Part shown: positions 48,174 through 64,000 of the stretch, in pieces | Layout: each line of letters begins with the position of its first letter | Position numbering within the stretch: position 1 is the first letter of the stretch | Assembly: GCF_030547005.1 (NCBI RefSeq) | Contig: NZ_JAUOPN010000018.1 | Coordinates: 1 to 64,000 of the forward strand | From: Maribacter sp. 1_MG-2023 | GTDB taxonomy: Bacteria; Bacteroidota; Bacteroidia; Flavobacteriales; Flavobacteriaceae | DNA: 64,000 nucleotides | Direction: 5' to 3' | Made by a program: the position numbers and the translations under genes | Notes under the pieces: generated by a model | What the model saw: only the letters and a program-made list of their open reading frames with translations | Database searches by the model: none | What the model was told of the DNA's origin: nothing

Positions 48174-49143
48174 TTATTCCTCTTTTTTCCATGCTTCTTT
48201 GATAAAGGTTAAATCCTTTTTCATCTTAGCGAACACTTCTTTTTTATCTATTGTAATTTTTGATGCACCGTGCTCTGCCCCGCCGAGATCATATTCTAAA
48301 TGTAATGATATGGGCACGTTGATTTTGTACTTTTTAAGTAAGGAAAAGTATCGGTTAAAATCTATCATACCTTCCCCTAAAGGTGTATTGATAGGCTCCC
48401 ATACTCCATCTTTCTTTCCCCATTTAAAATCTTTAATAACTATAGATTTAATATACGGCTGAATGCTTCGCAAATCTAATTCCCAACTTTTGCCACCCTC
48501 TACTACTGCATGTCTTATATCGTACTGACATCCTAAAAATTCAGTATCCGTTTTTGAAAAAATTGTAGGCAAATCCCAAATTGGTGCACCTACGTGATTA
48601 CCTGCATGATTTTGATAGCATCCGATTAATCCTAATTCCTTAATTTAAAATTTCTAAATGTTTAGCCTGCGTTGCATATAATGCCAGACTTTCTTCTATT
48701 GATTTTTCTTCGGGATAGCTTAACCAACCCGTTCGGTAATATTGGAACCCTAACGTGCTAGCTGTCTTTAAAACTTTTTGCTGACCGGCATCTGTAATAT
48801 CCCAAACATTGGTGGTCATCATCTTGGACTTCAATCCATATTTTTTCATGGCTTCTACTGCCACCGGTAAATCTTCATCTACCCTGTCTGGTAATACATG
48901 CCCTTTTGGGCGTACTGTTAAATCTAACCCATTAAAACCCATTTCTGCTGTTGCGGCAGACATCTCATTATAATCAAGAAATTGTAAATGTTTAGAGAAT
49001 AGGTGTACTTCAATACTATCATCTGTAGTTAAAAATGGTTTCAGAAAATCACTATCTAACTGTACTAAAGGTATGCCCGCCAATGCCATAGCTGATTTTT
49101 TTGCAAAATTTCTTCTAGTAACACCCTTTTTATCTTCTCTCAT
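48174..49143 (-). pseudogene. Tat-exported sugar phosphate isomerase/epimerase-like TIM barrel, frameshifted
   Basis: Two pieces in different frames make one AP-endonuclease/xylose isomerase-type barrel. The first starts MREDKKGVTRRNFAKKSAMALAG, a twin-arginine signal, and runs to KHLEILN; the second continues KELGLIGCYQNHAGNHVGAPIWDLPTIF. One extra base at about 48642 (AAT-T-AAG instead of AAT-AAG) breaks the frame at a TAA. Removing it gives a clean product of about 322 residues with NHAGNHVG and the metal-site blocks QYDIRHAV and LHLEYDLGG. The role would be isomerase or epimerase on an unknown sugar. It precedes the RraA-like gene. Confidence 0.8.
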
Positions 49144-49190: not shown

Positions 49191-49246
49191 TTGTCATTCT
49201 TACAAATATATGTATTTTTGGTCAACCAAACTGGTTAACCAGTTTG
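49191..49246 (+). promoter_or_regulatory. Promoter and tandem operator before PL6 copy 1
   Basis: TTG at 49191-49193 and TATTTTTG at 49213-49220 are 19 bp apart, as in Bacteroidota promoters. The box runs into GGTCAACC (49220-49227), and 13 bp further GGTTAACC (49233-49240) lies in the perfect 20-bp palindrome CAAACTGGTTAACCAGTTTG (49227-49246). A bound repressor would cover the -7 box and the transcript start. The TGGTnnACCA core is typical of GntR/FadR-type operators. Confidence 0.8.
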
Positions 49247-49309
49247 TAGTGATTACACAATAAATCACAGATCTACATTGAGTTTCAAACCAGATTAATA
49301 TACTATCTA

Positions 49310-51628
49310 ATGAAAAAGTATTTTATACTATTAGCTTCCGTTTTCTTATTACTTTCTTGTAGTGAAGAATCAATCAGTAACGCTATCACCGTAAACGATA
49401 TTACAGAGTTAAATACAGCAATATCTGAAGCAAAACCTGGCGACGATATTGTTATGGCCAATGGAGATTGGAAAGATGTGAATATCAAATTTGTAGCCTA
49501 CGGAAAAGAGAAAAACCCTATTACTTTACGTGCAGAAACGCCTGGTAAAGTTAGAATTACCGGCACTTCTGATTTGAAACTTGCTGGCGATTATTTAATT
49601 GTTGATGGGTTGCACTTTACTAACGGATCATCTCCATCTTCAGCTGTTATCGATTTCGGTATTAGTGAAGACTCGGTCGCAAACCATAGTAAGATTACCA
49701 ATTCTGCAATTATAGATTTCAACAAAGCACAACGTAATCAAACAGATTTATGGGTTTTATTTAAAGGTCGACACAATGAACTAGACCATTGCTATATTTC
49801 AGGAAAGTCGAATAGAGGACCAACGGTTAGAATTGATTTGGCAGGTAATAATAGTATTAAGAATTACCATAAAATTACCAATAACTATTTCGGACCTCGA
49901 CCACCTAAAGGCGGACCTAGTGCTGAGACCATTCAACTTGGTAATAGCTTTACCTCTATGGCCCCTAGTTATACTTTAGTTGAAAATAACTTTTTTGACC
50001 ACTGTAATGGTGAAGTAGAGATTATTTCTAGTAAAACCAATTTCAATGAATTTAGAAATAATGTGTTTTATAAAAGCGAAGGTTCTCTAGTTACAAGGCA
50101 TGGTAACTACTGCATTATTGATGGCAATGTATTTATAGGAGATGAAAATTCTGATCAAATAGGTGGTATTCGATTAATAGGAACAGGACACTGGGTAACT
50201 AATAATTACTTCTACAATTTAAACGGAAAAACATTTAGGAGTCCGCTTGCCGTAATGAACGGTATTCCAAAATCACCATTGAACAGATATTTACAAGTTA
50301 CCGATGTTGTTGTTTCCAATAATTCTTGGATAAATTGTGTGTCGCCTTGGCAATTTGGAGTAGGATCGAATACCGATCAAAAAGATATTTTACCTAAGTC
50401 AGAGATTAGATCCGCAACACCTATACGAACAATTGTGGCAAATAATCTTATCTATAATGACAAAGGAGATAAGCAGCCTATTGTTACCCATGACTCTATA
50501 GATGGCATTAGATTTAAAAGTAATGTCATTAATAATCAAGGAGTGATGTTTAAGGCGGTTGACGGACTTACCCAAAAAGATTTTCGCACTACTGTAGCCG
50601 ACGGAGATATTTTAATGCCCGATAATTCATTGGATGCCTTTAAACTTTATTACGGATTTGAATTTGACCAGATTACTGCCGATTTGTTTGGTAACTCTAG
50701 AGCTGACAAAAATTTGGTTGGTGCTGTAATAGGTAAGCCAGTGAATAAAAAAGATATGATGGATGTATCGCAATATGGTCCTGACTGGTATTCTAAAACA
50801 AATTCTACGAGCACCGAAAACAAAACACATTCAGCAAGTACCGTTGCCGAGCTTACCAGCGCCCTTACAACTGCAAATAGTGGAGATACTATTGTACTAT
50901 CTGCCGAGCGTTACGATTTAGATACCCCTTTAATAATTAATAAAGGTATTACCATAATGGCTACTACCTCTGATACAAAAGCCATTATTCAATATAAAGG
51001 AGCATCTGAAACTCCGGCTTTTGAAATGAATCCTAAAGGGCAACTTACTCTTAAAAATGTTCAACTTATTGGAGCTAAAGAACAGTATGCTTTTGCTAGT
51101 TTAAAGAATAATATGTCGAGCCTGTACAATTTAACCGTTGTCGATTGTGAAATATCGAATTTCGATTATGTTTTAAAAGCATACAAGCTTTCGTTCTCTG
51201 AGCATATTACTTTCAAATCTACTCAAATTAAAGATTGCGCAAATGGTTTAGAACTGTCTGAAGAAACAGATGATAGGGGGGAATACAATGCCGAGAACAT
51301 TACAATTGACAACTGTTTATTTGATGGGGTTGCGAGTAATGTTCTGGACTACTATAGAGGTGGCTATGATGAATCTACAGTTGGTGGTAATTTAATAGTA
51401 ACTAACAGTACATTCACACATTGTGGATCTAAATCTAAAGAAGGACTACTTCTTAATACTTATGGTATTATCAATGTAAACCTTGCTAACAATAAATTCA
51501 TTGACAACCCTGTAAAACTTGTTGCACGTCTATGGGGTGCAAAGAACAACAAGGCTTTTAACAATGAAATAAAAAATTCCGGGAAGCTGGTTGTACAAGA
51601 AAACCTACCTCTTAAACTTATGTACTAA
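49310..51628 (+). CDS. PL6 alginate lyase, lipoprotein (copy 1)
   Basis: A 772-residue PL6 (chondroitinase B-like) lyase with a lipobox (LLSC, Cys17). It cleaves alginate by beta-elimination. Catalytic Lys242 (EVEIISSKTNFN) and Arg263 (VTRHGNY) are 21 residues apart as in chondroitinase B (Lys250/Arg271). NNYFGPRPPKGG and EVEIIS mark the calcium/substrate cleft of the first right-handed beta-helix, residues about 25-430. A second beta-helix fills 510-770. The two-domain layout and length fit the PL6 enzymes of flavobacteria. It is first of the alginate genes and 15 bp before PL7; the operator described at 49191-49246 precedes it. Confidence 0.94.
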   Translation: MKKYFILLASVFLLLSCSEESISNAITVNDITELNTAISEAKPGDDIVMANGDWKDVNIKFVAYGKEKNPITLRAETPGKVRITGTSDLKLAGDYLIVDGLHFTNGSSPSSAVIDFGISEDSVANHSKITNSAIIDFNKAQRNQTDLWVLFKGRHNELDHCYISGKSNRGPTVRIDLAGNNSIKNYHKITNNYFGPRPPKGGPSAETIQLGNSFTSMAPSYTLVENNFFDHCNGEVEIISSKTNFNEFRNNVFYKSEGSLVTRHGNYCIIDGNVFIGDENSDQIGGIRLIGTGHWVTNNYFYNLNGKTFRSPLAVMNGIPKSPLNRYLQVTDVVVSNNSWINCVSPWQFGVGSNTDQKDILPKSEIRSATPIRTIVANNLIYNDKGDKQPIVTHDSIDGIRFKSNVINNQGVMFKAVDGLTQKDFRTTVADGDILMPDNSLDAFKLYYGFEFDQITADLFGNSRADKNLVGAVIGKPVNKKDMMDVSQYGPDWYSKTNSTSTENKTHSASTVAELTSALTTANSGDTIVLSAERYDLDTPLIINKGITIMATTSDTKAIIQYKGASETPAFEMNPKGQLTLKNVQLIGAKEQYAFASLKNNMSSLYNLTVVDCEISNFDYVLKAYKLSFSEHITFKSTQIKDCANGLELSEETDDRGEYNAENITIDNCLFDGVASNVLDYYRGGYDESTVGGNLIVTNSTFTHCGSKSKEGLLLNTYGIINVNLANNKFIDNPVKLVARLWGAKNNKAFNNEIKNSGKLVVQENLPLKLMY

Positions 51629-51652
51629 TACCACACAAAAAATATGTTACCA

Positions 51653-52705
51653 ATGAAAAAATCAATAATTACCATCATAGCAGTAGTAGCTTTATTTGCC
51701 TGTAAAGACAACTCAAAGAAAGCTTCGGACACTACTGAAACATCCATTATCGATAGTGTAATTGCCACTACATACCCTAGCGATGTTATCCCGTTTATGG
51801 ATGAATGGAAAATTCTATTAGGTGATGGCACCTACGAGGATAACCTTAAAAATTACGCCAAAGATGATTTCTTTTATGTTGCTAATGACGGAAAAACTGA
51901 TTGGGTAGTTTACAAAACACCAAATAGCGGCATAACATCTCGTACATCTAGCAACACAAGAACAGAATTAGGTCAAAAAGAACATTGGATACCTGAGACT
52001 GGGGGCAAATTAACCGGAACTTTAAAAGTACAACACGTATCTACTTCTGGCGATGCAAGAGTTGCCGCTTCTTATGCTGTTGTGGTAGGACAGATACATA
52101 GTGATGAGGGACATGAGAATGAACCAATAAAAATTTTCTACAAGAAATTTCCCGGACATACAAAAGGATCTGTTTTCTGGAATTATGAAATCAACACAGA
52201 AGGGGATAATTCAAAAAGATGGGATTTCTCATCAGCTGTTTGGGGTAATGATATGTCAGTTGTTGGATCAGACGCAACAACTCCTCCCGCAGAACCAGTA
52301 AATGGTATCGAATTAGGTGAAGAGTTTAGCTATGAAATTAATGTTTATAAAGGCATCATGTACTTAACTTTTACAAGTGAAGGTCATGAAACCGTAAAGT
52401 TCACCAAAAACCTATTGGCGTCTGAATTTACTAAAACCTTACCTGAACAAATTAAAACACTATATGCCTCAATAGGTCGTGATGGTTTGGAACGCGAAAA
52501 TGCATATGCTGGCGAAATTCAATATTTCAAACAAGGTGCATATAATCAAACTAATGGTAAATCTCCAGAAGACAATATTGTTTGGAGTACAGGTGCTGAT
52601 ACCTATGATGGTGATATCGAAAAACAATATGCAAATGGTGATTATACAGAAGTGTGGTTTAGAGAAGCAACGGTAGGTGCAGGTACTGAACCAAATGAGG
52701 AATAG
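51653..52705 (+). CDS. PL7 alginate lyase, lipoprotein
   Basis: A PL7 (alginate lyase 2) enzyme of about 350 residues. I take the second ATG (51653, MKKSIITIIAVVALFAC) because it leads straight into the lipobox; ATG 51644, three codons earlier, is also possible. The jelly-roll motifs are all present: RTELGQ, QIH in VVGQIHSDE, and YFKQGAYNQ near the end. QIH instead of QVH is usually linked to activity on G-containing blocks rather than pure polyM. It lies 24 bp after PL6 copy 1 and is probably co-transcribed. Confidence 0.94.
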   Translation: MKKSIITIIAVVALFACKDNSKKASDTTETSIIDSVIATTYPSDVIPFMDEWKILLGDGTYEDNLKNYAKDDFFYVANDGKTDWVVYKTPNSGITSRTSSNTRTELGQKEHWIPETGGKLTGTLKVQHVSTSGDARVAASYAVVVGQIHSDEGHENEPIKIFYKKFPGHTKGSVFWNYEINTEGDNSKRWDFSSAVWGNDMSVVGSDATTPPAEPVNGIELGEEFSYEINVYKGIMYLTFTSEGHETVKFTKNLLASEFTKTLPEQIKTLYASIGRDGLERENAYAGEIQYFKQGAYNQTNGKSPEDNIVWSTGADTYDGDIEKQYANGDYTEVWFREATVGAGTEPNEE

Positions 52706-52889
52706 CATTCAGTTTTCTTATAGGGTTGTTTTGAAGTTTATTTAGACCATAAACAAATCACTCTTTATGTGACCAAATAGACTTCTAATTACTGATAGAT
52801 TTACAAGTAACGAAATTTATCGAATTGATGATTTCTAAAGTAGATATTTATCGATTCGTAATTTAAACCACCCTTTTTATGTTAAATAT
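52706..52889. other. Gap between PL7 and the second promoter
   Basis: AT-rich, no ORF seen. GAAGTTTATTT (from 52732) and AAATAGACTTC (to about 52794) could pair in a long-looped stem, a possible weak terminator for the PL6-PL7 transcript, but no T-run follows. Confidence 0.3.
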
Positions 52890-52945
52890 TTGCTAGTCTT
52901 GCAAATATCCTTATTTTTGGTAAACCAATTTGGTTAACCAATTTC
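52890..52945 (+). promoter_or_regulatory. Promoter and tandem operator before PL6 copy 2
   Basis: TTG at 52890-52892 and TATTTTTG at 52912-52919, again 19 bp apart. GGTAAACC (52919-52926) fuses to the box and GGTTAACC (52932-52939) follows 13 bp later inside CAATTTGGTTAACCAATTTC. Geometry equals that at 49191-49246. The start codon at 52951 lies only 6 bp beyond, so the leader is about 25 nt. Confidence 0.8.
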
Positions 52946-52950
52946 AACTC

Positions 52951-55287
52951 ATGAAACGATATCACCTTCTATTCTTATCTGTTTTTATATGCCTAGCATA
53001 TTCCTTTTCAACACCACAACAAACTTATAACGTAAAAAATGTAGCAGAGTTTACAGCTATACTTCAAAAAGTACAGCCTGGTGATAGCATAGTTCTTGCC
53101 AATGGAATTTGGATGGATTCTGAACTACTCTTCGAAGCAAATGGTACCGCAGAAAATCCGATTACGCTTATAGCAGAAGAAAAAGGAAAAGTGATTTTAT
53201 CTGGCGCATCTAATTTAAGAATCGCTGGCGATCATTTAATCGTAAAAGGTCTTGTATTCAAAAACGGTTTTACGCCGACCAACGCTGTTATTTCCTTCAG
53301 AAAAAGTAGAGAACAAATGGCTAATAATTCTCGCCTTACCGAATGTGTAATCGATAACTTTAATAATCCTGAGCGTCAAGTTCAAGATTATTGGATAACC
53401 ATCTACGGAAAAAATAACCGAATTGACCATAACCATATTGCAGGTAAAAAGAATTTAGGAGTTACCATGATTGTTGGTTTAGATACCGAAGATAGTAGAG
53501 CGAACAATCACCAAATAGATCATAATTATTTTGGACCACGCCCTACCTATGGAAACAATGGAGGAGAAACCTTAAGAATAGGAACTAGCCACCATGCATT
53601 AGAAAAATCCAACACCTTGGTTGAATCTAACTATTTTGATAGAACTAACGGTGAGCACGAAATCATCTCTAATAAATCTTGTAATAACACTTTTAAGTAC
53701 AATACATTTTTTGAATGTACAGGTACATTGACTATGCGCCATGGCAACGAAACATTGGTAGATGGTAATGTTTTTATAGGCAATAATAAACCAAGTACTG
53801 GCGGCGTTCGTGTCATTAATGAAACGCAAACAGTTATTAACAACTACCATGTTGGCTTGACAGGATATCGTTTTAGAGGTGCCTTTGTAATGATGAACGG
53901 CGTACCTAATTCACCACCGAATAGGTATGTACCCGTTATCGATTCTAAAGTAAACAACAACACTTTTGTAAACTGCGATAATATTCTTTTTGGTGCAGGT
54001 AGCGATGCCGAAAGAAGTCAGGCACCAAGAACCTCTGAGTTTTCAGAAAACATCATTTACAACGATACCAAAAAAGATGTTTTCACAATTGATGATGATA
54101 TTAGCGGTATCACTTTCAAGAACAACATCCTTGGCGAAAATTCAGAAACTACTATTAAGGAGGGTTTTAAGAATGCCAAGATTAAATTGGTAAAAGACAA
54201 AAACGGATTCCCGATACCAACTTCAAACAAGATTAAAACTAAAGTTGTTATTAGTCCGAAAATCGCAACTAAAGAGAACACAGGTATATCATGGTATTCA
54301 AAAGCAGATAATACGGTTGCGTTAAATTCTGGTAACACTATCAATGTAGCCGCAGGTATTAATACCTTGTACGATAAAGTAAAAGAAACGAAAGCAGGTG
54401 ATATTATTATTCTTGAAGAAGGTGGCACCTACTTATTGACCAAGGCGGTAAAAATCAACCATCCACTTACCTTTAAAACACTTGGCAAAGAAAAAGCTAC
54501 AATCTTATTTGAAAGAATGATGGCTTTTGAAATTGAAAATGGCGGTAGTCTTTCTTTAGAAAATATCACTTTTGACGGTACCAAATCCCCAGACTACGCA
54601 GGCAACTCGGTTATTAGTACTAGCAAAAAATCAATGATCGATAATTATAAACTGTTTATTGATAGATGTGAGTTTAAAGATATGATCGTAAATCATTCTT
54701 TTGATGTGTTACGCGTTTCTAAAGGCACCTTTGCCGACACTATTAGTATTCAAAATTCTAGCTTTAAAAACATCTCTGGTAGCATTGCAGCCTTAGATAA
54801 AGAAACTGATGATATCGGTGCTTACAATGTGGAATACTTTTTAATGAAAAATAATGCCATTAATGATTTACAAGGCGCAGCATTAAGACTGTATAGAGGC
54901 GGTAAGGACGAAAGTACCTTTGGACCATTTTTAGAAATGGAGCATAATGTATTTGACCATGTCGGTTACGGTTCTAAAAATAAATATGATGCTACCGTTT
55001 CTTTATACGGAGTTCAAGAAACAGCTATTAAAAACAATATTTTTAAAGATAGTAAGGCAATTAACATGCATCTGGTAGTGGGTGAGCCAATTGTAAAAGT
55101 TCTTAATAATGCTTTGAGTAATTCAGAAAAACTTATGGTCACAGGCGATCAAAAATACCAAGTAGAAAATCAATGGGAACTTGTTCCTGAATTTTCTAAA
55201 GACACCAACTACTCATTACCTTCAGATTCTCCATTGAAAGGAAAAGGTACTGATGGCAAAGACTTAGGCCTACTTAAAAACGAATAA
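52951..55287 (+). CDS. PL6 alginate lyase, exported (copy 2)
   Basis: A 778-residue PL6 lyase from ATG 52951 (MKRYHLLFLSVFICLAYSFS), which gives a normal signal peptide; a TTG at 52930 would lie inside the operator and is unlikely. Unlike the other two PL6 copies it has no lipobox, so it should be periplasmic or secreted. The catalytic pair is Lys242 (HEIISNKSCNN) and Arg263 (TMRHGNE). Two beta-helix domains follow as in copy 1. It is the most divergent of the three PL6 copies. It heads a second alginate transcript with PL17 and kdgF. Confidence 0.93.
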   Translation: MKRYHLLFLSVFICLAYSFSTPQQTYNVKNVAEFTAILQKVQPGDSIVLANGIWMDSELLFEANGTAENPITLIAEEKGKVILSGASNLRIAGDHLIVKGLVFKNGFTPTNAVISFRKSREQMANNSRLTECVIDNFNNPERQVQDYWITIYGKNNRIDHNHIAGKKNLGVTMIVGLDTEDSRANNHQIDHNYFGPRPTYGNNGGETLRIGTSHHALEKSNTLVESNYFDRTNGEHEIISNKSCNNTFKYNTFFECTGTLTMRHGNETLVDGNVFIGNNKPSTGGVRVINETQTVINNYHVGLTGYRFRGAFVMMNGVPNSPPNRYVPVIDSKVNNNTFVNCDNILFGAGSDAERSQAPRTSEFSENIIYNDTKKDVFTIDDDISGITFKNNILGENSETTIKEGFKNAKIKLVKDKNGFPIPTSNKIKTKVVISPKIATKENTGISWYSKADNTVALNSGNTINVAAGINTLYDKVKETKAGDIIILEEGGTYLLTKAVKINHPLTFKTLGKEKATILFERMMAFEIENGGSLSLENITFDGTKSPDYAGNSVISTSKKSMIDNYKLFIDRCEFKDMIVNHSFDVLRVSKGTFADTISIQNSSFKNISGSIAALDKETDDIGAYNVEYFLMKNNAINDLQGAALRLYRGGKDESTFGPFLEMEHNVFDHVGYGSKNKYDATVSLYGVQETAIKNNIFKDSKAINMHLVVGEPIVKVLNNALSNSEKLMVTGDQKYQVENQWELVPEFSKDTNYSLPSDSPLKGKGTDGKDLGLLKNE

Positions 55288-55292
55288 CACCC

Positions 55293-57521
55293 ATGATCAA
55301 ATACTTAACAACATTACAAATTTTTATTTGTGCGATTTTAATAACGTTCAGTGCAACTGCACAAGAACACCCTAGCCTTATTCTCACTAAAGAGGGAGTT
55401 GAAAAAATAAGAGCAGAATTAGGTTCTGTACCACTATTTGATGCCTCGTTACAAAAGTTAAAAGCAGAGATTGATGCCGAAATAGCTTTAGGCATAGACA
55501 CACCTATACCTAAAGATTATTCTGGCGGCTATACTCATGTACGTCATAAACGTAACATGATAGTAATGCAACAAGCTGGTGTTTTATATCAAATTTTAGA
55601 CGACGAAAAGTATGCAAAGTATGTAAAAGACATGCTTATGCAATATGAAGGAATGTATAAAACATTACCTCTGCACCCCAAAACCAGATCTTATGCTCGT
55701 GGTAAATTATTTTGGCAATGTTTAAATGATTCTAACTGGTTGGTTTACGTTAGCCAGGCATACGATTGTGTATATAACTACTTAAGTGCAGCCGAAAGAA
55801 AGAAGCTAGAGAAAAATCTTTTTAAACCATTCGCAGATCACATTTCAGTTGATAGTCCGCAATTCTACCAAAGAGTACACAACCATAGTACATGGGGCAA
55901 TGCAGCTGTTGGTATGATTGGTTTAGTAATGAACGATAAAGAATTAATTGATCGCGCTTTATACGGTATTCCAGATTTAGAAATGGACAAAACCGCTAAA
56001 GACGATGATGGCGGATTCATTAACAAAGAAGGTAAAGCTGGATTTCTAGCAAACATAGAAGAACCTTTTTCTCCTGACGGGTATTATAATGAAGGTCCGT
56101 ACTACCAGCGTTATGCCATGTATCCATTTTTGATTTTTGCAGAAGGTTTACACAATGTAAAACCAGAATTGAAAATTTTTGAATACAAGGACGGTGTACT
56201 TTTAAAATCAATCAATGCCCTTTTAAATTTATCTGATGCAGATGGAGATTTCTTTCCCCTTAACGATGGTCAGAAAGGAATGTCTTATTACAATGATGCC
56301 TTAGTTACTGCTGTAGATATTTCTTATTATTTCGGAAACCAAGACTCTGGATTATTAAGTATCGCCGAAAAGCAAAACAAGGTTTTACTAGACGATTCTG
56401 GATTGGCAGTTGCACTTGGTGTAAAAAATGGAAAAGCAAAGCCTTTCGATAAAAAATCAATTAACTTATCTGACGGACCTAACGGAAAACAAGGCGGTGT
56501 GGGTATTTTACGAAGTGATGATTTAGAACTTGTTTTTAAATATGCAGCACAAGGCTCAAGTCATGGCCACTATGATAAGTTATCATACTCTTACTACGAA
56601 AATGGTGATGAAGTATTGCAGGATTACGGATTAGCTCGTTTTGTAAATATTGAACAGAAAGGTGGTGGTAATTATCTGAAGGAAAATAAAACTTGGGCTA
56701 AGCAAACTATTGCCCATAATACACTAGTGCAAAATGAGAAATCTCACTACCAAGGCAAATATGATATTGGCAGCAAGCACAACCCTACTTTATATATTTT
56801 TGATGATTCTAATGCCAATATACAAATTGTTAGTGCTATAGAAACTAATGCGTATCCTGGTACAGAGATGCACAGAACAATGGCTATTATTAAAGATGGT
56901 GAATTTGAAAAGCCTTTCTTGCTTGATATTCTACGAGTTAAATCTGATAATACCAACCAATATGATTTGCCCTTTTATTTTATGGGTCAAGTATTGAAAA
57001 CAAATTTTGAATACGAAGTTCCGAAAACACTTGAACCTTTAGGTATTAATAGCGGCTATCAACATTTATGGTCAGAAGGTTGCGGAAGTACTACAGAAGA
57101 AAACACTAAATTGAGTTGGCTAGAAAAAGGGAAGTTCTATACCTTAACATCTGCAACCTCAAAAGATGACGAGTTAAGATTTGTACGAATAGGCGCCAAT
57201 GACCCTGAATTTAATTTAAGAAGAGAAGCTGGTTTTATTATCCGCAGAAAAGATACTCAAAATACGCTTTTTGTTTCAGCTATAGAAGCGCATGGAAGCT
57301 ATAGCCCGGTTTCAGAATCTGCTGTTAATTCTAATAGTTCTATCTCAGCGTTAAAAGTAATTTTAGATACTATAGATTACACCGCTATTTCAATAACTAC
57401 CGTAAAAGATTCTACCAAACTATTTATTATTGCAAATACCAATGCTTCAAAAGAAGCTACACATACATTAAAAATTAACGATAAGAATTATGAGTGGTCT
57501 GGTTCTTATTATTTTAAATAA
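55293..57521 (+). CDS. PL17 alginate/oligoalginate lyase
   Basis: A 742-residue PL17 enzyme with a signal peptide (LQIFICAILITFSATAQ). The N-terminal alpha-toroid holds NHSTWGNAAVGMIGLV (about residue 198) and YYNEGPYYQRYA with the catalytic Tyr (about 265); the C-terminal heparinase II/III beta-sheet domain starts near residue 390 (GVGILRSDDLEL) with SSHGHYDKLSYS. PL17 enzymes are mostly exolytic and release unsaturated monouronate from alginate ends. It is 5 bp after PL6 copy 2 and 20 bp before kdgF, so lyase and monomer handling are made together. Confidence 0.94.
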   Translation: MIKYLTTLQIFICAILITFSATAQEHPSLILTKEGVEKIRAELGSVPLFDASLQKLKAEIDAEIALGIDTPIPKDYSGGYTHVRHKRNMIVMQQAGVLYQILDDEKYAKYVKDMLMQYEGMYKTLPLHPKTRSYARGKLFWQCLNDSNWLVYVSQAYDCVYNYLSAAERKKLEKNLFKPFADHISVDSPQFYQRVHNHSTWGNAAVGMIGLVMNDKELIDRALYGIPDLEMDKTAKDDDGGFINKEGKAGFLANIEEPFSPDGYYNEGPYYQRYAMYPFLIFAEGLHNVKPELKIFEYKDGVLLKSINALLNLSDADGDFFPLNDGQKGMSYYNDALVTAVDISYYFGNQDSGLLSIAEKQNKVLLDDSGLAVALGVKNGKAKPFDKKSINLSDGPNGKQGGVGILRSDDLELVFKYAAQGSSHGHYDKLSYSYYENGDEVLQDYGLARFVNIEQKGGGNYLKENKTWAKQTIAHNTLVQNEKSHYQGKYDIGSKHNPTLYIFDDSNANIQIVSAIETNAYPGTEMHRTMAIIKDGEFEKPFLLDILRVKSDNTNQYDLPFYFMGQVLKTNFEYEVPKTLEPLGINSGYQHLWSEGCGSTTEENTKLSWLEKGKFYTLTSATSKDDELRFVRIGANDPEFNLRREAGFIIRRKDTQNTLFVSAIEAHGSYSPVSESAVNSNSSISALKVILDTIDYTAISITTVKDSTKLFIIANTNASKEATHTLKINDKNYEWSGSYYFK

Positions 57522-57541
57522 AAATTAAAAGAATAAAAATT

Positions 57542-57916
57542 ATGAAAAGATTCAGTGAAAAGTACGTCATCACTAAAGACATGGAATGGGAATTACTTGG
57601 AGGAGGAGTATCAAGAAAGTTTTTAGGTTATGACAACCAAATCATGATGGTTAGAGTAAAATTTGACAAAGGAGCATTAGGTGCCCCTCATCAACATTTT
57701 CACACACAAGCTACATATTGCGTTTCAGGTAAATTCGAATTTGTAATTGACGGTGAGAAGCAAATAGTAGAAGCAGGTGACGGAGTTTATATTGAACCAA
57801 ATTTATTACATAGTGCTGTTTGCCTTGAAGAAGGGGAACTTATTGATACTTTTAGCCCTGTCAGAGAAGATTTCTTAAGTGGTGTGGGTCCATCTTATTT
57901 CGGAGATAAAGAGTAA
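57542..57916 (+). CDS. kdgF: KdgF, unsaturated uronate linearising cupin
   Basis: A 124-residue cupin that converts the 4,5-unsaturated monouronate from lyases to the linear ketouronate DEH. The metal site is in GAPHQHFHTQATYCVSG (His50, His52, Gln56) with His90; Asp102, Phe104 and Arg108 in LIDTFSPVRED match the C-terminal residues important in characterised KdgF proteins. The length is normal. It follows PL17 by 20 bp, in the classic arrangement of alginate operons. Confidence 0.95.
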   Translation: MKRFSEKYVITKDMEWELLGGGVSRKFLGYDNQIMMVRVKFDKGALGAPHQHFHTQATYCVSGKFEFVIDGEKQIVEAGDGVYIEPNLLHSAVCLEEGELIDTFSPVREDFLSGVGPSYFGDKE

Positions 57917-57921
57917 GACCT

Positions 57922-57966
57922 AATCTATTTACAGTTACTTTTTGCGGCTTTAAATAGATTTTTTGA
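57922..57966 (+). terminator. Terminator after kdgF
   Basis: AATCTATTTA and TAAATAGATT form a 10-bp stem with a 19-nt loop, followed by a T-run (TTTTTTG). It ends or weakens the PL6-PL17-kdgF transcript before the transporter gene. Confidence 0.65.
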
Positions 57967-58006
57967 AGTACTATTTTATAACATATTAAATGCTGAACCA
58001 ATACTT

Positions 58007-59260
58007 ATGACAACAGAAAATATGTCCTTTTCAGGAAAATTTAAAAAACGTCTCAAGGATTTTGGTCCAGCATTTTTTATTATTGGTTATGTTGTAGGTA
58101 CCGGTAGTGTCACCTCAATGGTAGTTTCTGGCGCTAAATATGGTCTTAGTCTTTCATGGGCTTTACTACTTTCTTGTTTTTTCACCTATTTCTTATTGGT
58201 GTCTATTAGTAAATTGACCATCGTCTCTGGAAATACCCTAATGTTCAATTTCAAAAAGGCATTCGGTAAACCACTCACTATTTTTATTATTACTGCATTA
58301 CTCGTCTCTATAGTTTCATCTTGTATTGGCGTTATGGGCGTTGTGGCAGAAGTAACAATGGAATGGATTTCAGTAAAAACTTCCATTTCATTTCTTAACA
58401 AACCTGTAGTTTCCATCTTTTTTATAGCCTTACTTATCGGTCTTTTTTGGACCGGTAAACACGAAAATTTCATAAAAGCCATGAGTATTATGGTTGGCTT
58501 CATGGCCTTAGCCTTTATTATCACCAGCTTTATGGTGGTTAAAGAAGCAGGCACTTCTATTACCGAATTTTTTCCTGAATTACCTAAAGGTGATAATAAC
58601 GGATTGGTAATTGCCGGTATAGTTGGTACTACAATGGCAGGTGTTTGTTTAGCGTCGAGAAGTATTCTCGTTCAAGAACAAAATTGGGGCTTAAAAGATT
58701 TAAAAACTGAAAACAAAGATGCAATGTCTTCAATGGTAATGACCTTTTTTATAAGTCTTGCTATAATGATCAGCGCAACGGGAACCCTGTACTTTAAGGG
58801 CGCACCTGTTGAAGATGCAACAGATATGATGCATGCATTAGGACCATGGGCAGGAGATTTCGCCCTTACCCTATTTACATTAGGAATTATTGGTGCGGGT
58901 TTGTCATCCATCTTTCCTAACCTATTATTATTCCCTTGGTTAGTTGCTGATTACACAGGTACAGAACGCGACATGAAAAAACCGCTGTACAAACTAATTG
59001 TTGTATTGGTGGCATTGTCTGGTTTAATTGTCCCTATTCTAGGAGGAAAACCAGTTTGGATATTAATTGCTTCTCAAGCATTAAGTCCGTTTGTAATGCC
59101 ATTGATTACACTCTTTCTAATTATTCTCTTAAACAAAGAGAGTATCATGAAAGAGTACAAAGTAGGTATAGGGATGAATTTAGCCTTAGGCGCCACTTTT
59201 ATTTTCAATTGTTATATGCTTTACGTTGCATTAAACGGATTTATTGATTTCATTCAGTAA
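58007..59260 (+). CDS. NRAMP-fold transporter lacking the usual metal residues
   Basis: A 417-residue, about 11-segment membrane protein related to NRAMP. The first segment, GPAFFIIGYVVGTGSVTSMV, aligns with the place where metal transporters have DPGN, yet here it reads GTGS. The sixth segment (GIVGTTMAGVCLASRSILVQEQNWG) lacks the Met-Pro-His type metal ligands. So metal uptake is doubtful, and a role in carrying an organic solute such as an unsaturated uronate or DEH is an inference from its place between kdgF and a PL6 gene. The start could also be the internal Met6. Confidence 0.75.
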   Translation: MTTENMSFSGKFKKRLKDFGPAFFIIGYVVGTGSVTSMVVSGAKYGLSLSWALLLSCFFTYFLLVSISKLTIVSGNTLMFNFKKAFGKPLTIFIITALLVSIVSSCIGVMGVVAEVTMEWISVKTSISFLNKPVVSIFFIALLIGLFWTGKHENFIKAMSIMVGFMALAFIITSFMVVKEAGTSITEFFPELPKGDNNGLVIAGIVGTTMAGVCLASRSILVQEQNWGLKDLKTENKDAMSSMVMTFFISLAIMISATGTLYFKGAPVEDATDMMHALGPWAGDFALTLFTLGIIGAGLSSIFPNLLLFPWLVADYTGTERDMKKPLYKLIVVLVALSGLIVPILGGKPVWILIASQALSPFVMPLITLFLIILLNKESIMKEYKVGIGMNLALGATFIFNCYMLYVALNGFIDFIQ

Positions 59261-59301
59261 ACAAACAGACGCTAGTTCATTTTATTTAACAAGTTACTTT
59301 T

Positions 59302-61620
59302 ATGAAGAATATTCTACTAGCGATTACTGTTTTTATTGCACTAGCATCTTGTACAGAAAATAGTTCTAAAAAAGCTCTCATTGTTAATGACATTGCCGAA
59401 TTAAATACTGCAATAGCCAAAGCCAGTCCTGGTGATAAGATTTTATTAGCCGATGGCATTTGGAAAGATGCTGCTATAAAATTCTACGGTAACAGTACAG
59501 AAAAACAACCTATTACCATTAGTGCAGAAACACCTGGTAAAGTATTTTTAGAAGGTAATTCATTTATTCAACTAGGCGGAGAGTATTTAACTGTAAGTAA
59601 CCTCTACTTTAGAAATGGATACTCCCCCAACAGTTCTATAATTCGTTTTATGATTAATGAAGATAGCGTTGCAAATAACTGTCGTGTAACCAATACCGTC
59701 ATTAAAGATTACAACCAACCAAACCGATACACGAATGACCGTTGGATAGAACTTTACGGTAAGCACAACCAATTTGATCATAATTATATATCTGGAAAAT
59801 CTAATGATGGAGAAACGTTAAGAGTATTCTTCGCGGGTAACCAACATATAGAGAATCACCATCAAATAGTAAACAACTATTTTGGACCACGTCCCAGAAA
59901 AGGAGGCCCTAGAGGTGAGACCATACGTATAGGTGATAGTAAAACCCGTTTTTCTCCAGGTTATGTAAACGTATCAGATAATTTTTTTAATGCCTGTAAT
60001 GGTGAGGTCGAGATAATATCAGACAAGACAAATTTCAATTCTTTCAATCATAATATCTTTTACAAATCTGAAGGCTCTTTGGTATTACGACATAGCAATT
60101 ACGCTAAAGTAAATGGTAATATTTTCATTGGTGGTGATGATTCTGAATTCTATGGTGGCATTAGAGTTGTAAATGCAGGTCATTGGATTACCAATAATTA
60201 TTTCTACAACATCAAAGGAGAAGAATTTAGGTCGCCACTTGCGATTATGAACGGCATACCCATGACTCCTTTAAACAGATATCTACAAGTCTCAGATGTT
60301 GTGGTCGCTTTTAATACCTGGGTAGATTGCACATCACCTTGGCAAATAGGTATTGGTCAAAATTTAGAAAGTGCCAGTGTACTGCCTGCGAGTGAAATTA
60401 GATCTGCAGCACCTATTCGATCTATCGTTGCGAACAACCTTATCTATAATTCGAAAGCTGATAGGACACCTGTTATAAACCACAGTGAAATGGATGGCAT
60501 TTTATTTAAGAATAACATTATTGACAATAATGGCACTGTATATTCTGAGTATGATGTACTACAAAATGGAGAAGTAAAAATGGAGCAAATTAATGAATGG
60601 CTCTTTGCTCCTGCCAATTTTAAAGATAGTATTTCGAAAGTGGTGTATTACGGATTCGATTTTAGCAAAATCAACAAAGATATTTTTGGTGCATCGCGAA
60701 GTTATAAAAATAGTCCAGGTGCCATAAACGACCTTTCTTTAGCTAAAAAATTTATAATCGACAAGAAAAAGTACGGACCAGATTGGTTCTCGCCCGAAGA
60801 AGAAGTTTATGAACCTCAAATAATAAAAGCCACAGCTGCAGAAGGTGAACTTGCTGCTAAAATTCAACAGGCACATACTGGCGACATTATAGAATTAACC
60901 GATGCCATTTATCAAATAAATACTCCATTAGCTATTGACAAGAGTATCACCTTACGTTCAAAAGACGCTACCACTAAAGCTGAATTAATATTCACGAATG
61001 ATAAAGATAGCGTGGCTTTTAAAATGAAGCCTAAGGGAAAGTTAAGATTGGAACATATTATAGTAAAAGGCTTAAACAACCAGATTGCTTTTGCACCATT
61101 AACAACAAATATGTCATCTGCCTACAGTCTAGATATAGTGGGTTGTGAAATAAGCAATTTCGCCTTTATCTTAAAAGCCTACAAAGGCTCTTTTGCGAAT
61201 AGCATTTCATTGAAAGATACTGCTTTCAATAATTGCTTAAACGGTATAGTTCTCGCTGCCGATGAAAAGGGTGACTACAATGCCGAAATGGTCTCTATTT
61301 ACCAATGCGAGTTTGATAATATTGGGCAGAATGTTATTGATTTCTATAGAGGGGGTTATGACGAATCTACTATTGGTGGATATTTAACAATAAAAAATAG
61401 CAGTTTTACAAATTGTGGAAAGAATGAAAAAAGTGATATTCTATTAAAAACCAAAGGTATAATCAACGTGCTAATTGCAGATAACACTTTCAAGAACAAT
61501 CCTGTTAGCTATGCTGCTCTTTTATGGGGAGAAAAGAATAATCATCACACTAATAACACAACTATAAATTCTGGTGAAATTAAAGTAGAAGAACAGCAGA
61601 AGCTAAAAATTCTATATTAA
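59302..61620 (+). CDS. PL6 alginate lyase, lipoprotein (copy 3)
   Basis: A 772-residue PL6 lyase with a lipobox (LASC, Cys17) and the same two-helix plan as copy 1, to which it is closely similar from start to end (LKLMY versus LKILY). Catalytic Lys242 and Arg263 are kept, but the conserved RHG reads RHS here (LRHSNY), as the glycine after the His is Ser264+1. It lies 41 bp after the NRAMP-fold gene without an operator of its own. Copies 1 and 3 probably come from a duplication and may differ in preference for M, G or MG blocks. Confidence 0.93.
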   Translation: MKNILLAITVFIALASCTENSSKKALIVNDIAELNTAIAKASPGDKILLADGIWKDAAIKFYGNSTEKQPITISAETPGKVFLEGNSFIQLGGEYLTVSNLYFRNGYSPNSSIIRFMINEDSVANNCRVTNTVIKDYNQPNRYTNDRWIELYGKHNQFDHNYISGKSNDGETLRVFFAGNQHIENHHQIVNNYFGPRPRKGGPRGETIRIGDSKTRFSPGYVNVSDNFFNACNGEVEIISDKTNFNSFNHNIFYKSEGSLVLRHSNYAKVNGNIFIGGDDSEFYGGIRVVNAGHWITNNYFYNIKGEEFRSPLAIMNGIPMTPLNRYLQVSDVVVAFNTWVDCTSPWQIGIGQNLESASVLPASEIRSAAPIRSIVANNLIYNSKADRTPVINHSEMDGILFKNNIIDNNGTVYSEYDVLQNGEVKMEQINEWLFAPANFKDSISKVVYYGFDFSKINKDIFGASRSYKNSPGAINDLSLAKKFIIDKKKYGPDWFSPEEEVYEPQIIKATAAEGELAAKIQQAHTGDIIELTDAIYQINTPLAIDKSITLRSKDATTKAELIFTNDKDSVAFKMKPKGKLRLEHIIVKGLNNQIAFAPLTTNMSSAYSLDIVGCEISNFAFILKAYKGSFANSISLKDTAFNNCLNGIVLAADEKGDYNAEMVSIYQCEFDNIGQNVIDFYRGGYDESTIGGYLTIKNSSFTNCGKNEKSDILLKTKGIINVLIADNTFKNNPVSYAALLWGEKNNHHTNNTTINSGEIKVEEQQKLKILY

Positions 61621-61663
61621 GATAATTTCTGGTTTCCGCTGTTATATTTAATTTCCAAACTCC

Positions 61664-62758
61664 TTATTTTGGTGGGTAACATAATAATATCTTCGATGCT
61701 ATAGTAGACTTAAACTCAACTTGGTCTATTGCTGCAGAAAAGAAAATTTCATCACCTTGAGTAAAACTGTATTCTTTACCGCCACTAATTATAGTTCCTT
61801 CCCCAAAGTAAATAACAGCTACAAAAAAGCTTCCATTTGCCTTAATAGTATGTGATCCGTTTAAATCTAGTTCGCTTAGACCAAAACAATCTGTATGAGT
61901 TTCATTGAAAATCGTATTTAAGGTATGAGTATCAGATGAATCTATCGTTTTAGGTGAGACCTTCCATCTTTTTATTGCTTCTTCATAAGAACAACCATCG
62001 TAATGAAAACAATCAAGCATATTTTGCTCCCCCACCCCTTGGTGTATTAATTCATCAGAAATTGTTAATCCTGCAGGAGTAACTTTTTCTACACGCATGG
62101 TATAATCTGTAGGCTCTTGAACTTCCATTAAAAAGCAACCACTACCAATTGCATGTGGTACACCACCATATATCATATATGCATCACCAGGGTTTACCTC
62201 TATCTTATGAAGACTGTTCAACATGCCTTCTATATCTTGAGCAACAAATAAGGTTTCCCATTGTTCTTTGGTCACACCTTCTTTAAAGCCCATATAAATG
62301 ACACTCTTCTCTCCATTTATTTCTCTCTTATTCAAAACGTACCATGATTCAGTTTTTCCGAAAGCGGAATTCAACATGGTCTTGGCATAATCTTTATCTG
62401 GGTGAACTTGTATCGTTAACCTTTCTTTAGAATCGAGCATTTTTATCAATACTCCCGTAGTACCAAATTTATCTGCCAATGCTTTACCTAAGTACAGTTC
62501 TTTGTTCGAAGCAACCAATTCTTTTAACGAATGAGTACCTGACGGAGTTTCAACAAGAGAGAGTCCTTCGTTTTCTGGTCGGCCATTCCCTCTTGCAGTT
62601 ACGGTAGACATAATCCATTCTTCTGGCATGCTACCATCTACTTCTGGAGCGTCTTTTTTCCACTTATCAATTAATGCTCCACCTTCATAAGTTCGCCAAA
62701 CTCTGTTAGAAAATTGTTTTAAAGGTATATACGCGTATTGCTCAAAATCAGTATTCAT
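61664..62758 (-). CDS. manA: Class I mannose-6-phosphate isomerase
   Basis: A 364-residue type I phosphomannose isomerase, which interconverts mannose-6-P and fructose-6-P. Zinc-site blocks are TIQVHPDKDYAKTM (residue about 117) and GDAYMIYGGVPHAIGSG (about 193). The length fits the bacterial short form. It is read against the alginate genes. Alginate breakdown does not make mannose-6-P, so it may serve another sugar in the same diet (mannitol or mannans of brown algae) or exopolysaccharide synthesis. Confidence 0.88.
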   Translation of the reverse strand: MNTDFEQYAYIPLKQFSNRVWRTYEGGALIDKWKKDAPEVDGSMPEEWIMSTVTARGNGRPENEGLSLVETPSGTHSLKELVASNKELYLGKALADKFGTTGVLIKMLDSKERLTIQVHPDKDYAKTMLNSAFGKTESWYVLNKREINGEKSVIYMGFKEGVTKEQWETLFVAQDIEGMLNSLHKIEVNPGDAYMIYGGVPHAIGSGCFLMEVQEPTDYTMRVEKVTPAGLTISDELIHQGVGEQNMLDCFHYDGCSYEEAIKRWKVSPKTIDSSDTHTLNTIFNETHTDCFGLSELDLNGSHTIKANGSFFVAVIYFGEGTIISGGKEYSFTQGDEIFFSAAIDQVEFKSTIASKILLCYPPK

Positions 62759-63340
62759 AATAATGTATTAGTGTTCATTAAAAATCATGGAAATCAATGA
62801 AAATCAAAATGTTGAATTCATGTATTTTATCCTAAAACCAAATAACTTTTTGAAAATTTAGAGAGGAAAACCGTTCAAATCTAGCAATTTATACGTGAAT
62901 TTTAGATAAAAAAATGCTCTAAACAGCCTGAAAAATATTCATTTGAAAAAATACTTCATTTGTTAACAAAATACCATATCCTCAATATTTATAGGACTTA
63001 AAAGAGGAATTCAAAAAATTCATCAAGCCCAAAGTTGTTAAAATGTATATTTCTCTTTTTTTAACGAATAAATAACATATATTTGGTAAACCAAATTGGA
63101 TAACCAGTTTGGGAAACCAAAATAATAGCTTACTCAAATTATTATCGAACTTAATATTAATTAAAACTCAATGACAAAAAAACACATTAAAACATTTACT
63201 AAGACAAGTAATTATTAAACTGTTAACACAAACTTCTAAATAGTAGAATTAAAAAGTGTAACAGACTAAAAATGAAACAAAGCTCAATTTTCATTTTAGA
63301 ATGCTTTAATCAGACTTAAATTAACATAACAAGACTACAA
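62759..63340 (+). promoter_or_regulatory. Divergent intergenic region of manA and alginate susC with triple operator
   Basis: This 582-bp gap holds the susC promoter: TATATTTG at 63078-63085 runs into GGTAAACC (63085-63092), then GGATAACC (63098-63105) and GGGAAACC (63111-63118), each 13 bp apart. That is one copy more than before the PL6 genes. The -33 place (63056-63058) has TTT, not TTG. The leader to ATG 63341 would be about 250 nt, AT-rich. No further gene was seen. The manA promoter must be near 62760-62820; none is clear. Confidence 0.75.
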
Positions 63341-64000
63341 ATGAATTTAAAAACAAAATTAGGATTAGTGATGATGTTGTTATTCAACATATCATTGTTC
63401 GCACAAGACGGTTATAACTTGACCGGTACGGTAACAGATGAGACAAGTATGCCTGTACCAGGTGCAAATGTTGTTATACAAAATACAACTACAGGTACTT
63501 CTACAGATTTTGATGGTAATTTCTCTATCACAGTTTCTAACGGAGATGTTTTAGAGTTTTCTTCGATTGGATATACTACTAAAGCAGTTAACATTACAGG
63601 CCAACAAACTTTAAATGTTGTTCTTGCCGAAGATGCAAGCCAACTTGAAGAGGTTGTTGTAGTAGGTTATGGTACTCGTAAAAAATCACACTTAACAGGT
63701 GCGGTTGCAAAAATTGGCGGCGATGACGTTGCTGCCGTGCAAGCCACTCGTGTTGATGATGCTTTAGCAGGAAAGTTGCCAGGTGTTTTAATTCAGAATC
63801 AAGACGGTGCGCCAGGTGCGGATCCAAAGATTCAAATTAGGGCAGCATCATCTATTTCAGGTGCATCAAATCCATTAATTGTTGTTGATGGCTATCCCAT
63901 TTCTGGAGGTATAGCATCAGTTAACCCAAATGACATTGAGAGTTTAGAGGTATTAAAAGATGCTGCTTCTGCTGCAATTTATGGTTCTAGAGGTGCGAAT
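63341..64000 (+). CDS. SusC-like TonB-dependent transporter (N-terminal part)
   Basis: The first 220 codons of a second SusC, cut by the window end. A signal (MNLKTKLGLVMMLLFNISLFAQ) is followed by a carboxypeptidase-like domain (LTGTVTDETSMPVPGANVVIQN), the TonB-box region (LEEVVVVGYGTRKKSHLTGAV) and the plug with NPLIVVDGYPISGG and SLEVLKDAASAAIYGSRGAN. It should import alginate oligosaccharides and is expected to be followed by a susD. It is controlled by the triple operator upstream. Confidence 0.94.
   Translation, partial: MNLKTKLGLVMMLLFNISLFAQDGYNLTGTVTDETSMPVPGANVVIQNTTTGTSTDFDGNFSITVSNGDVLEFSSIGYTTKAVNITGQQTLNVVLAEDASQLEEVVVVGYGTRKKSHLTGAVAKIGGDDVAAVQATRVDDALAGKLPGVLIQNQDGAPGADPKIQIRAASSISGASNPLIVVDGYPISGGIASVNPNDIESLEVLKDAASAAIYGSRGAN

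Follow-up and report, generated by a model that had tools for sequence, protein, structure and literature searches.

Three alginate promoters in the window, by which is meant the whole 64,000-nucleotide stretch of Maribacter sp. 1_MG-2023 DNA that was analyzed, carry palindromic units that follow one another at 13-bp steps and are fused to the -7 box. As predicted from their sequence, these phased units are very probably bound as operators by an AusR-type repressor, which belongs to the FadR (FCD) group of GntR proteins. The layout is common to many related genera; the import gene usually has the most copies and the gene of the repressor itself the fewest. Operator systems of this kind are already known.

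Direct reading of the letters showed that in each promoter the last letter of the flavobacterial -7 box, TAnnTTTG, is also the first G of a GGTNAACC unit (boxes at 49213, 52912 and 63078) and that a second unit begins 13 bp after the first, while a third, again at a 13-bp step, was present only before susC. The 10-bp core of all units was TGGTNNACCA, which is palindromic, and unit 2 of the first PL6 promoter was surrounded by a perfect 20-bp palindrome at 49227-49246. An upstream TTG with a 19-bp spacer was found in two of the three promoters. An earlier sequence-only reading had described the fused boxes, the repeats, the palindrome and the two TTG elements, and all were recovered here; the susC promoter has TTT in place of TTG. 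The start positions in Table 1 were predicted with a promoter ruler from another flavobacterium, in which the -7 box lies at -12 to -5 (available text of PMC9723704).

Table 1. Promoter elements, candidate operator units and genes of the alginate locus.
Feature	Position	Strand	Remark
TTG (-33 element), first PL6 promoter	49191..49193	+	19 bp ahead of -7 box
-7 box TATTTTTG, first PL6 promoter	49213..49220	+	predicted start ~49225 if box is -12 to -5
Operator unit 1 TGGTCAACCA, first PL6 promoter	49219..49228	+	candidate operator, read from sequence
Operator unit 2 TGGTTAACCA, first PL6 promoter	49232..49241	+	candidate operator; centre of 20-bp palindrome
Lyase gene (Pfam Chondroitinas_B)	49310..51628	+	Pfam match
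Alginate_lyase2 gene	51644-52705		Pfam match; follows 49310..51628 lyase gene
TTG (-33 element), second PL6 promoter	52890..52892	+	19 bp ahead of -7 box
-7 box TATTTTTG, second PL6 promoter	52912..52919	+	predicted start ~52924
Operator unit 1 TGGTAAACCA, second PL6 promoter	52918..52927	+	candidate operator
Operator unit 2 TGGTTAACCA, second PL6 promoter	52931..52940	+	candidate operator
Same-strand gene run behind second array	52951..61620	+	PL6-type, PL17-like, cupin, Nramp-fold transporter, PL6-type
-7 box TATATTTG, susC promoter	63078..63085	+	predicted start ~63090
Operator unit 1 TGGTAAACCA, susC promoter	63084..63093	+	candidate operator; inner GGTAAACC from 63085
Operator unit 2 TGGATAACCA, susC promoter	63097..63106	+	candidate operator; inner GGATAACC from 63098
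Operator unit 3 TGGGAAACCA, susC promoter	63110..63119	+	candidate operator; inner GGGAAACC from 63111
susC	63341..64000, extends beyond window	+	then susD, ausR, MFS, SDR genes on contig
ausR (GntR + FCD, PF00392 + PF07729)	C10:68068-68769		behind susD, 5 kb downstream of susC promoter
LacI-type gene	C10:71040-72056		end of locus

The PL17-like gene of the run behind the second array scored 670 bits with the oligoalginate lyase model against a cut-off of 1400. We take the Chondroitinas_B gene to belong to family PL6 and the Alginate_lyase2 gene to PL7, and the cupin gene is presumably KdgF-like. A second alginate locus, on contig C5, has a triple array ahead of its susC and encodes an AusR paralog that is 76% identical. 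Counted in units, this genome has 2, 2 and 3 at the window promoters, 2 ahead of ausR and 3 ahead of the C5 susC.

With TGGTNNACCANNNTGGTNNACCA as the pattern and up to two mismatches allowed, four matches were found in the window against 0.03 expected, all at the three promoters (susC twice), and none of 100 shuffles attained four. Since all four matches were at alginate promoters, no further phased copy was found at that level in the sulfatase locus of the window, in keeping with the earlier statement that no other strong copy was seen there. A single lone GGTAAACC, at 58265, lies inside a gene. The weaker test with TANNTTTGGTNNACC and at most one mismatch gave five window matches against 1.9 expected, and 4 of 100 shuffles attained five.

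When the whole genome was searched with at most one mismatch, the phased pair occurred only at the three window promoters and at C10:68018-68040, just beyond the window, where two units form the own phased operator of ausR, the GntR/FCD gene beside susCD. Random occurrence in many non-alginate intergenic regions, named in the sequence-only reading as evidence against its proposal, was not observed, the pattern being absent from other intergenic regions at this level. At up to three mismatches the phased pattern gave 24 genome matches against 23 for the control, which is noise. A genome search for the single unit TTGGTNNACCAA at up to one mismatch was too noisy for use (377 matches against 249 for the reversed control). 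Exact TTGGTNNACCAA sites numbered 16 in the genome, comprising four in the window promoters, the C43 site, and 11 others, nine of them inside called reading frames and two intergenic (C1:657836 and C8:76510); at these two a fused TAnnTTTG box was not seen by eye.

The arrangement was also studied in relatives. Within 118 loci, pairs of exact cores up to 100 bp apart were spaced at 13 bp (105 pairs), 26 bp (25) or 45 bp (1) and at no other distance. With one mismatch allowed, the 13-bp spacing accounted for 198 pairs and the 26-bp spacing for 67, with at most five pairs at any other spacing up to 80 bp; two of four control palindromes also peaked at 13 or 26 in this test because their near-matches overlap the same arrays. 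Removal of repeated contexts reduced the arrays from 345 to 329, and from 263 to 260 in a subset survey that excluded the named loci lest one species count twice. The unique multi-unit arrays numbered 194; a downstream gene lay on just one side of 173 of them, and 172 had enough flank for the box test. The TAnnTTTG box was fused to unit 1 in 159 of these 172 oriented arrays and on the mirror side in 5, the corresponding figure in the subset without named loci being 130 of 138. Among 159 arrays with the TA in place, an upstream TTG was found at a spacer of 19 in 59, of 18 in 14 and of 20 in 12, and at none of the spacers 15-24 in 64.

The 13-bp register could be a functionally meaningless legacy of one duplicated promoter, as the pattern-bearing genomes are nearly all of one family and the promoters within a genome could be copies. 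We regard this as unlikely, given that in 70 susC triples the core letters and the 13-bp step were constant while linker and flanking letters varied, and given the near-exclusive spacings of 13 and 26 described above. The register also loosened where one good unit remained. Only one good unit was present in 61 of 81 array-bearing ausR promoters, and in such promoters the box-to-unit distance varied (three adjacent offsets, with 32, 17 and 5 loci), so that a strict register is a property of the multi-unit promoters. The fused box was absent from 6 of 20 multi-unit ausR arrays, and by eye no correlation was seen among the letters flanking each unit.

Copy number was graded by gene class. All gene-class counts cover the 20-kb stretches around AusR genes. 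The gene-class table omits, from a set of 260 arrays, the 12 that have genes on either side and the 27 that have none, and the copy-number comparison takes no account of single units that fall within called genes. Of 67 genomes, 63 had more copies at susC than at ausR and 4 had equal numbers. Copy number was likewise higher at susC than at the lyases in 10 of 13 genomes and equal in the other three, which extends to relatives what the sequence-only reading had noticed in the window. Relatives mostly have three units at susC, two at the lyases and one good unit at ausR; the numbers here are 3, 2 and 2.

Across 397 genomes the unit pair accompanied the AusR gene, being present in 98 of the 103 genomes that have an AusR-like gene against 13 of the 294 that lack one (Fisher p 2e-71, a statistic that ignores kinship). 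Among the five AusR-bearing genomes without an exact pair, four had a multi-unit susC array once up to two mismatches per further unit were allowed. A reversed control pattern occurred in 35 of the 397 genomes, by hand count in 11 of the 103 AusR-bearing genomes and 24 of the other 294, and so showed no AusR link. Letters were listed for six of the 13 pair-bearing genomes without AusR (seven pairs, at spacings 13, 12, 21, 24, 24, 28 and 37), and the spacing-13 pair, in genome G154, resembles by eye a TonB receptor coding sequence. The count of four for the present genome in this survey seems to include one spacing-12 pair inside a gene on contig C1. In a class-wide sample the exact 13-bp pair was found in 8 of 395 genomes (reversed control, 3), of which five had an AusR gene of at least 70% identity, one a 52% relative and two none at E 1e-30. 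Outside the family, 11 of 12 genomes with an AusR relative (best match 46-52% identity) were without the pair, and the operator code is therefore not claimed for them.

AusR combines a GntR winged helix with an FCD effector domain, which is the FadR-subfamily architecture, and its PDB sequence relatives include FadR, PdhR and NanR. The GntR regulator of AusR type that the sequence-only reading had named has a counterpart in the ausR gene. The suggested likeness to ExuR/UxuR holds only loosely; those models scored 65-72 bits against 118-119 for NanR/LldR, all below cut-offs (NCBIfam NanR model, 119 bits against 260). According to the available text of PMC4494728, FadR-subfamily operators follow NyGTM-N0-1-KACNy with TKGT/ACMA boxes, and FadR R35 and R45 make specific G contacts. 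The TGGTNNACCA units agree with this palindromic TKGT/ACMA consensus in their TGGT/ACCA halves, and AusR has arginines at the contact positions: R41 and R51 were conserved in 121 of 121 sequences and R55 in 120, and if the alignment with FadR is offset by -6, as where it begins, they would correspond to FadR R35, R45 and R49. The difference is that here two or three sites stand at 13-bp steps; in the text available of PMC4494728 the word "tandem" is absent, and its table is without a FadR-type factor from Bacteroidetes. That the units serve some other regulator, such as the LacI-type protein whose gene closes the locus, is very unlikely in view of this consensus match and of the co-occurrence with AusR.

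The AusR alginate regulon of Zobellia galactanivorans was reportedly described by Dudek et al. 2020. In that organism AusR is a GntR repressor of most alginate genes that is relieved by alginate products (PMC7874173, PMC8286568, as far as available), with operators in single, double or triple copies (PMC7874173, likewise). As there, the regulator is encoded within the alginate PUL and promoters have two or three candidate operator copies; the organism is a different one and has two AusR paralogs. Judged by locus and description, the present locus fits AusR of Zobellia. A Zobellia record was not found among 30 named AusR loci, the closest named AusR relatives being from Maribacter, and the available parts of PMC3878776 and PMC9296495 hold nothing on the operator. 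The FadR-type E. coli NanR also uses a repeat operator, three dimers stacking side by side on (GGTATA)3 with cooperativity from a 32-residue N-terminal extension (PMC8012715, partial text). In contrast, the units here are full palindromes, not direct GGTATA repeats, and such an extension was not found in AusR, whose GntR match begins at residue 18 of 233.

The idea that the repeats act in RNA, a 5' stem-loop stabilizing or regulating the mRNA and the GntR operator match being secondary, can almost be discounted: units 1-3 of the predicted susC transcript do form a stem of 9 bp close to the 5' end and the whole leader has a z-score of -1.72 (12 of 200 shuffles fold as well), but the stem-loop reading of the array was unsupported by co-variation at the linker positions in 69 susC triples (47, 36 and 49 paired against 47.9, 35.7 and 54.6 expected), the promoter-overlapping unit 1 is the most constant, and unit presence tracks the gene of a DNA-binding protein.

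If the units are AusR operators, each 10-bp core would bind one dimer. Unit 1 runs from the end of the -7 box across the predicted start, and units 2 and 3 would lie at the very beginning of the transcribed region, so that dimers on these units would keep the promoter from opening or prevent escape from it. Release of AusR by a product of alginate breakdown would induce the lyases and SusCD import and, mildly, AusR itself, and copy number would set the strength of repression. It is also possible, though we propose it tentatively and with some doubt, that compact FadR-type dimers without a NanR-like extension touch one another at 13 bp in a phase-locked stack that nucleates at the -7 box; the step count of each gene class, kept across dozens of genera, would then encode a graded de-repression (regulator, then lyases, import last), with a two-hairpin susC mRNA leader as a second import lock in many relatives. 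A step of 13 bp is about one full DNA turn and a quarter.

Alginate ranks among the major carbohydrates of brown algae, and marine flavobacteria are among its important consumers. With a fixed and readable operator layout, alginate regulons in this family could be predicted from sequence. The loose idea of several repressor copies becomes testable, by setting copy number or the 13-bp step against repression, and promoters that are otherwise alike but have one, two or three units form a natural series for GntR cooperativity on DNA.

In many relatives the leader of the alginate susC has two conserved hairpins, which were not found in the window. Hairpin 1 had a unique match in 61 of 98 susC leaders, and in 53 of these a relaxed pattern also matched hairpin 2; the alignment comprised 51 of the 53, without the near copies L167 and L096. 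In the two susC leaders searched against Rfam, all matches fell far short of the gathering scores. If it acts as RNA, this leader element would add another level of control to polysaccharide import.

Direct reading of the window confirmed that, at three promoters of the alginate locus, a -7 box of the form TAnnTTTG ends in the first G of a 10-bp palindromic operator unit, with a unit-to-unit step of 13 bp without exception in the three arrays. The perfect 20-bp palindrome claimed in the sequence-only reading was exact, and the TTG described 19 bp upstream of the -7 box was present in two of the three promoters. Four phased matches were reached in 0 of 100 dinucleotide-preserving window shuffles, with 0.03 expected. 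The box-and-unit pattern without mismatches matched the window at the three promoters only; with one mismatch it gave five matches vs 1.9 expected, and 4 of 100 shuffles reached five, which in a single window is weak evidence.

Operator arrays and leader element in the window and in contigs of the same genome
Feature	Position	Strand	Description
-7 box TATTTTTG	49213-49220		final base is first G of operator unit
Operator units, 10-bp core TGGTNNACCA	starts 49219, 49232		first array
Palindrome, 20 bp	49227-49246		exact
-7 box TATTTTTG	52912-52919		final base is first G of operator unit
Operator units, core TGGTNNACCA	starts 52918, 52931		second array
-7 box TATATTTG	63078-63085		susC promoter; final base is first G of operator unit
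Operator units, core TGGTNNACCA	starts 63084, 63097, 63110		susC array
Regulator's own phased array	C10:68018-68040		TAAATTTG fused to TGATAAACCA, then TGGTTAACCA 13 bp on
Triple array, middle unit decayed	C5:119917-119952	minus	TATATTTG-fused, upstream of second susC
TATATTTG-fused unit and decayed unit	C43:37144-37166 (with box, L249:9139-9167)		upstream of SDR gene
Two-hairpin element	C5:119781-119847 (L074:19666-19732)	minus in L074	

Downstream of the arrays lie lyase genes with the Pfam domain Chondroitinas_B (PL6 type), an Alginate_lyase2 gene (PL7) and a PL17-like gene (670 bits with the oligoalginate lyase model, under its cut-off of 1400). Genes for a cupin, presumably KdgF-like, and an Nramp-fold transporter likewise lie downstream, with susC after them; outside the window the contig continues with genes for SusD, a GntR/FCD regulator, an MFS transporter and an SDR. 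The closest relatives of this regulator that carry an organism name are from Maribacter (best identity 96%). The sequence-only reading had pointed to AusR, a GntR repressor of alginate genes in Zobellia, and the gene past the edge is of this kind and has a phased array of its own; this array lay outside the stretch first read, and is therefore an independent success of the pattern.

Nramp-fold transporter genes are present in both alginate loci of the genome (window 58007-59260 and L074:8301-9572). A DPGN metal motif is expected in such transporters; the window copy may not carry divalent metal, because VVGTGSV stands at that place, and our guess is a uronate or DEH carrier. Two adjoining minus-strand frames (window 48174-49143) diverge from the first array and resemble a single gene that has been interrupted; the first had no match, and the second matched the C-terminal part of a xylose-isomerase-like TIM barrel. 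A LacI-type regulator gene (C10:71040-72056; L013:11040-12056) lies at the end of the alginate locus.

A search of the 4.27-Mb genome with the 13-bp phased pair, the check proposed in the sequence-only reading, found four places at up to one mismatch, all within this alginate locus. With two mismatches allowed, the search also picked up the second pair within the susC array and three further places. The first, on contig C5, belongs to a locus with two Alginate_lyase2 genes, SusD, a PKD-domain protein and a second AusR. The second, on contig C43, lies behind a histidine-tRNA ligase gene, and the gene after the adjacent SDR gene matches ribose pyranase weakly; this site is possibly a distant AusR target, as a candidate only. 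The third (C1:59559) falls inside a gene. The two AusR paralogs (C10:68068-68769 and C5:109767-110465), one per alginate locus, are 76% identical, and cross-regulation between them would be possible.

An AusR relative matching at E 1e-30 or better is encoded in 103 of 397 genomes of the family Flavobacteriaceae. Two exact cores separated by 0-30 bp were found in 98 of these 103 genomes and in 13 of the remaining 294 (Fisher p 2e-71, without correction for kinship), and a reversed control pattern in 11 and 24, respectively (hand count). Of the five AusR genomes lacking an exact pair, four show a multi-unit susC array when the setting is relaxed (loci L094, L120, L129, L142).

Exact-core pairs within 80 bp in 110 loci were spaced at 13 bp in 99 cases, at 26 bp in 20 and at 45 bp in one, and exact matches to four control palindromes gave no pairs in the same loci. 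Another set of 118 loci, with repeated contexts removed, held 105 pairs at 13 bp (from 54 genera), 25 at 26 bp (from 18 genera) and one at 45 bp, with no other exact-core spacing up to 100 bp. When up to two mismatches were allowed in further units, 151 sequences contained 94 double, 93 triple and one quadruple unique intergenic arrays, and six additional arrays inside called reading frames.

The fusion to the promoter was assessed with array orientation set by the downstream gene, not by sequence. TAnnTTTG ended in unit 1 in 159 of 172 oriented multi-unit arrays, and stood at the mirror-image position at the far array end in five. Fused boxes in a subset of relatives were found at susC (98/99), lyases (12/13), ausR (14/20) and other classes (6/6), and 73 of the 74 genera having a multi-unit array showed at least one. 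The position profile has TT where a -33 TTG with spacer 19 would be. In Flavobacterium psychrophilum the box is reported at -12 to -5 (PMC9723704), and by this ruler unit 1 would cover about -6 to +4, unit 2 +8 to +17 and unit 3 +21 to +30, a repressor position relative to the predicted start.

Copy number was graded by gene class in stretches around AusR genes only, a unit being counted if it had at most two mismatches and was in step with an exact unit. In this subset of relatives, susC arrays were 28 double, 70 triple and one quadruple, lyase arrays 13 double and no triple (with five single hits, three of them inside genes), and ausR arrays 61 single, 14 double and six triple. Genera with at least three copies numbered 48/70 for susC, 0/13 for lyases and 4/58 for ausR. 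Within genomes, susC had more copies than ausR in 63 of 67, the rest being equal, and lyases vs ausR gave nine more, one equal and one fewer. The higher copy number at susC than at lyases, first seen in the window, held in 10 of 13 genomes, with three ties. At single-unit ausR promoters unit 1 is decayed and the box mostly reads TAnnTTTA; the offset from box to good unit has three main values, 19, 20 and 21, at 32, 17 and 5 of 61 loci (double counting possible), so the register is strict with unit 1 and looser without it.

These data support the interpretation first proposed. In the most likely mechanism, the -7 box and the start site would be blocked by AusR dimers bound at unit 1, more dimers at 13-bp steps would strengthen the block, and alginate products would release them. 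The fixed step suggests that neighbouring dimers touch. An action of the repeats at the RNA level gained no support from a linker-linker pairing test in 69 triples.

AusR has GntR and FCD domains of the FadR subfamily, with R41 and R51 invariant in 121 AusR sequences and R55 in 120. The FadR match is offset by -6 where it begins and by -7 where it ends; taking the former, R41, R51 and R55 would therefore fall on FadR R35, R45 and R49, a correspondence we infer from the offset, and R35 and R45 are described as specific G contacts (PMC4494728). The AusR unit fits the TKGT/ACMA consensus of the FadR subfamily in the same survey, a table of which holds no FadR-type factor from Bacteroidetes (PMC4494728). 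The AusR of Zobellia is reported to repress most alginate genes and to be released by oligosaccharide effectors (PMC8286568), and its operators are described as single, double or triple copies; the clause that comes next in the latter passage, on enhanced inhibition after alginate addition, looks like a slip (PMC7874173). AusR-type regulation being described in the literature, the locus thus adds a new member to a known kind of system. For stacked FadR-type dimers the closest parallel is E. coli NanR (PMC8012715), which, unlike AusR, uses direct repeats and needs a 32-residue extension that AusR does not have. The 13-bp register, -7 box fusion and grading by gene may already be in print; a shallow literature test met no title or abstract opening on them. 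Ordinary as a type of system, the case has strong evidence behind it and yields two layout rules that can be tested; an unassigned leader element accompanies it.

A long leader separates the array from the susC start (median 262 nt in 98 leaders, simple ATG rule), and in many relatives it contains conserved hairpin 1, AAAAAAA-GGAYRGG-TGCACG-CCYATCC-TTTT, and hairpin 2, TTACTTC...GAAGTAA; one or both were found by pattern in 68 of the 98. Among 51 aligned leaders (alignment A1), one stem-1 pair alternates between A-U (31) and G-C (17) and supplies 17 of 20 two-sided changes, and the observed covariation counts were reached in 0 of 500 shuffles. The covariation score was higher with the partner shifted by +2 columns (0.072 vs 0.058 unshifted), stem 2 had no two-sided changes in these leaders, and the RNAalifold covariation term was only -0.22, so sequence conservation is strong and covariation modest. 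One stem-1 pair was unpaired in 32 of the 51, and a DNA palindrome would likewise co-vary.

The window held no match to a covariance model of the element; the genome held a single strong one, upstream of the C5 susC (E 1.6e-13; next best 0.09). In 199 family genomes the model gave 39 matches with E up to 1.1e-4 (38 genomes), each sharing a contig with an AusR gene, within about 23 kb. Because many of these loci had gone into the model, what counts is the absence of equally strong matches elsewhere; weaker matches, down to 0.01, were scattered. In the other, organism-named set, 11 of 30 loci had a copy. Two leaders searched against Rfam reached no family cut-off, and the titles and abstract openings from literature searches held nothing on the element. 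The element may act as an RNA attenuator or serve as a protein site, and the A and U runs of hairpin 1 give it the look of an intrinsic terminator.
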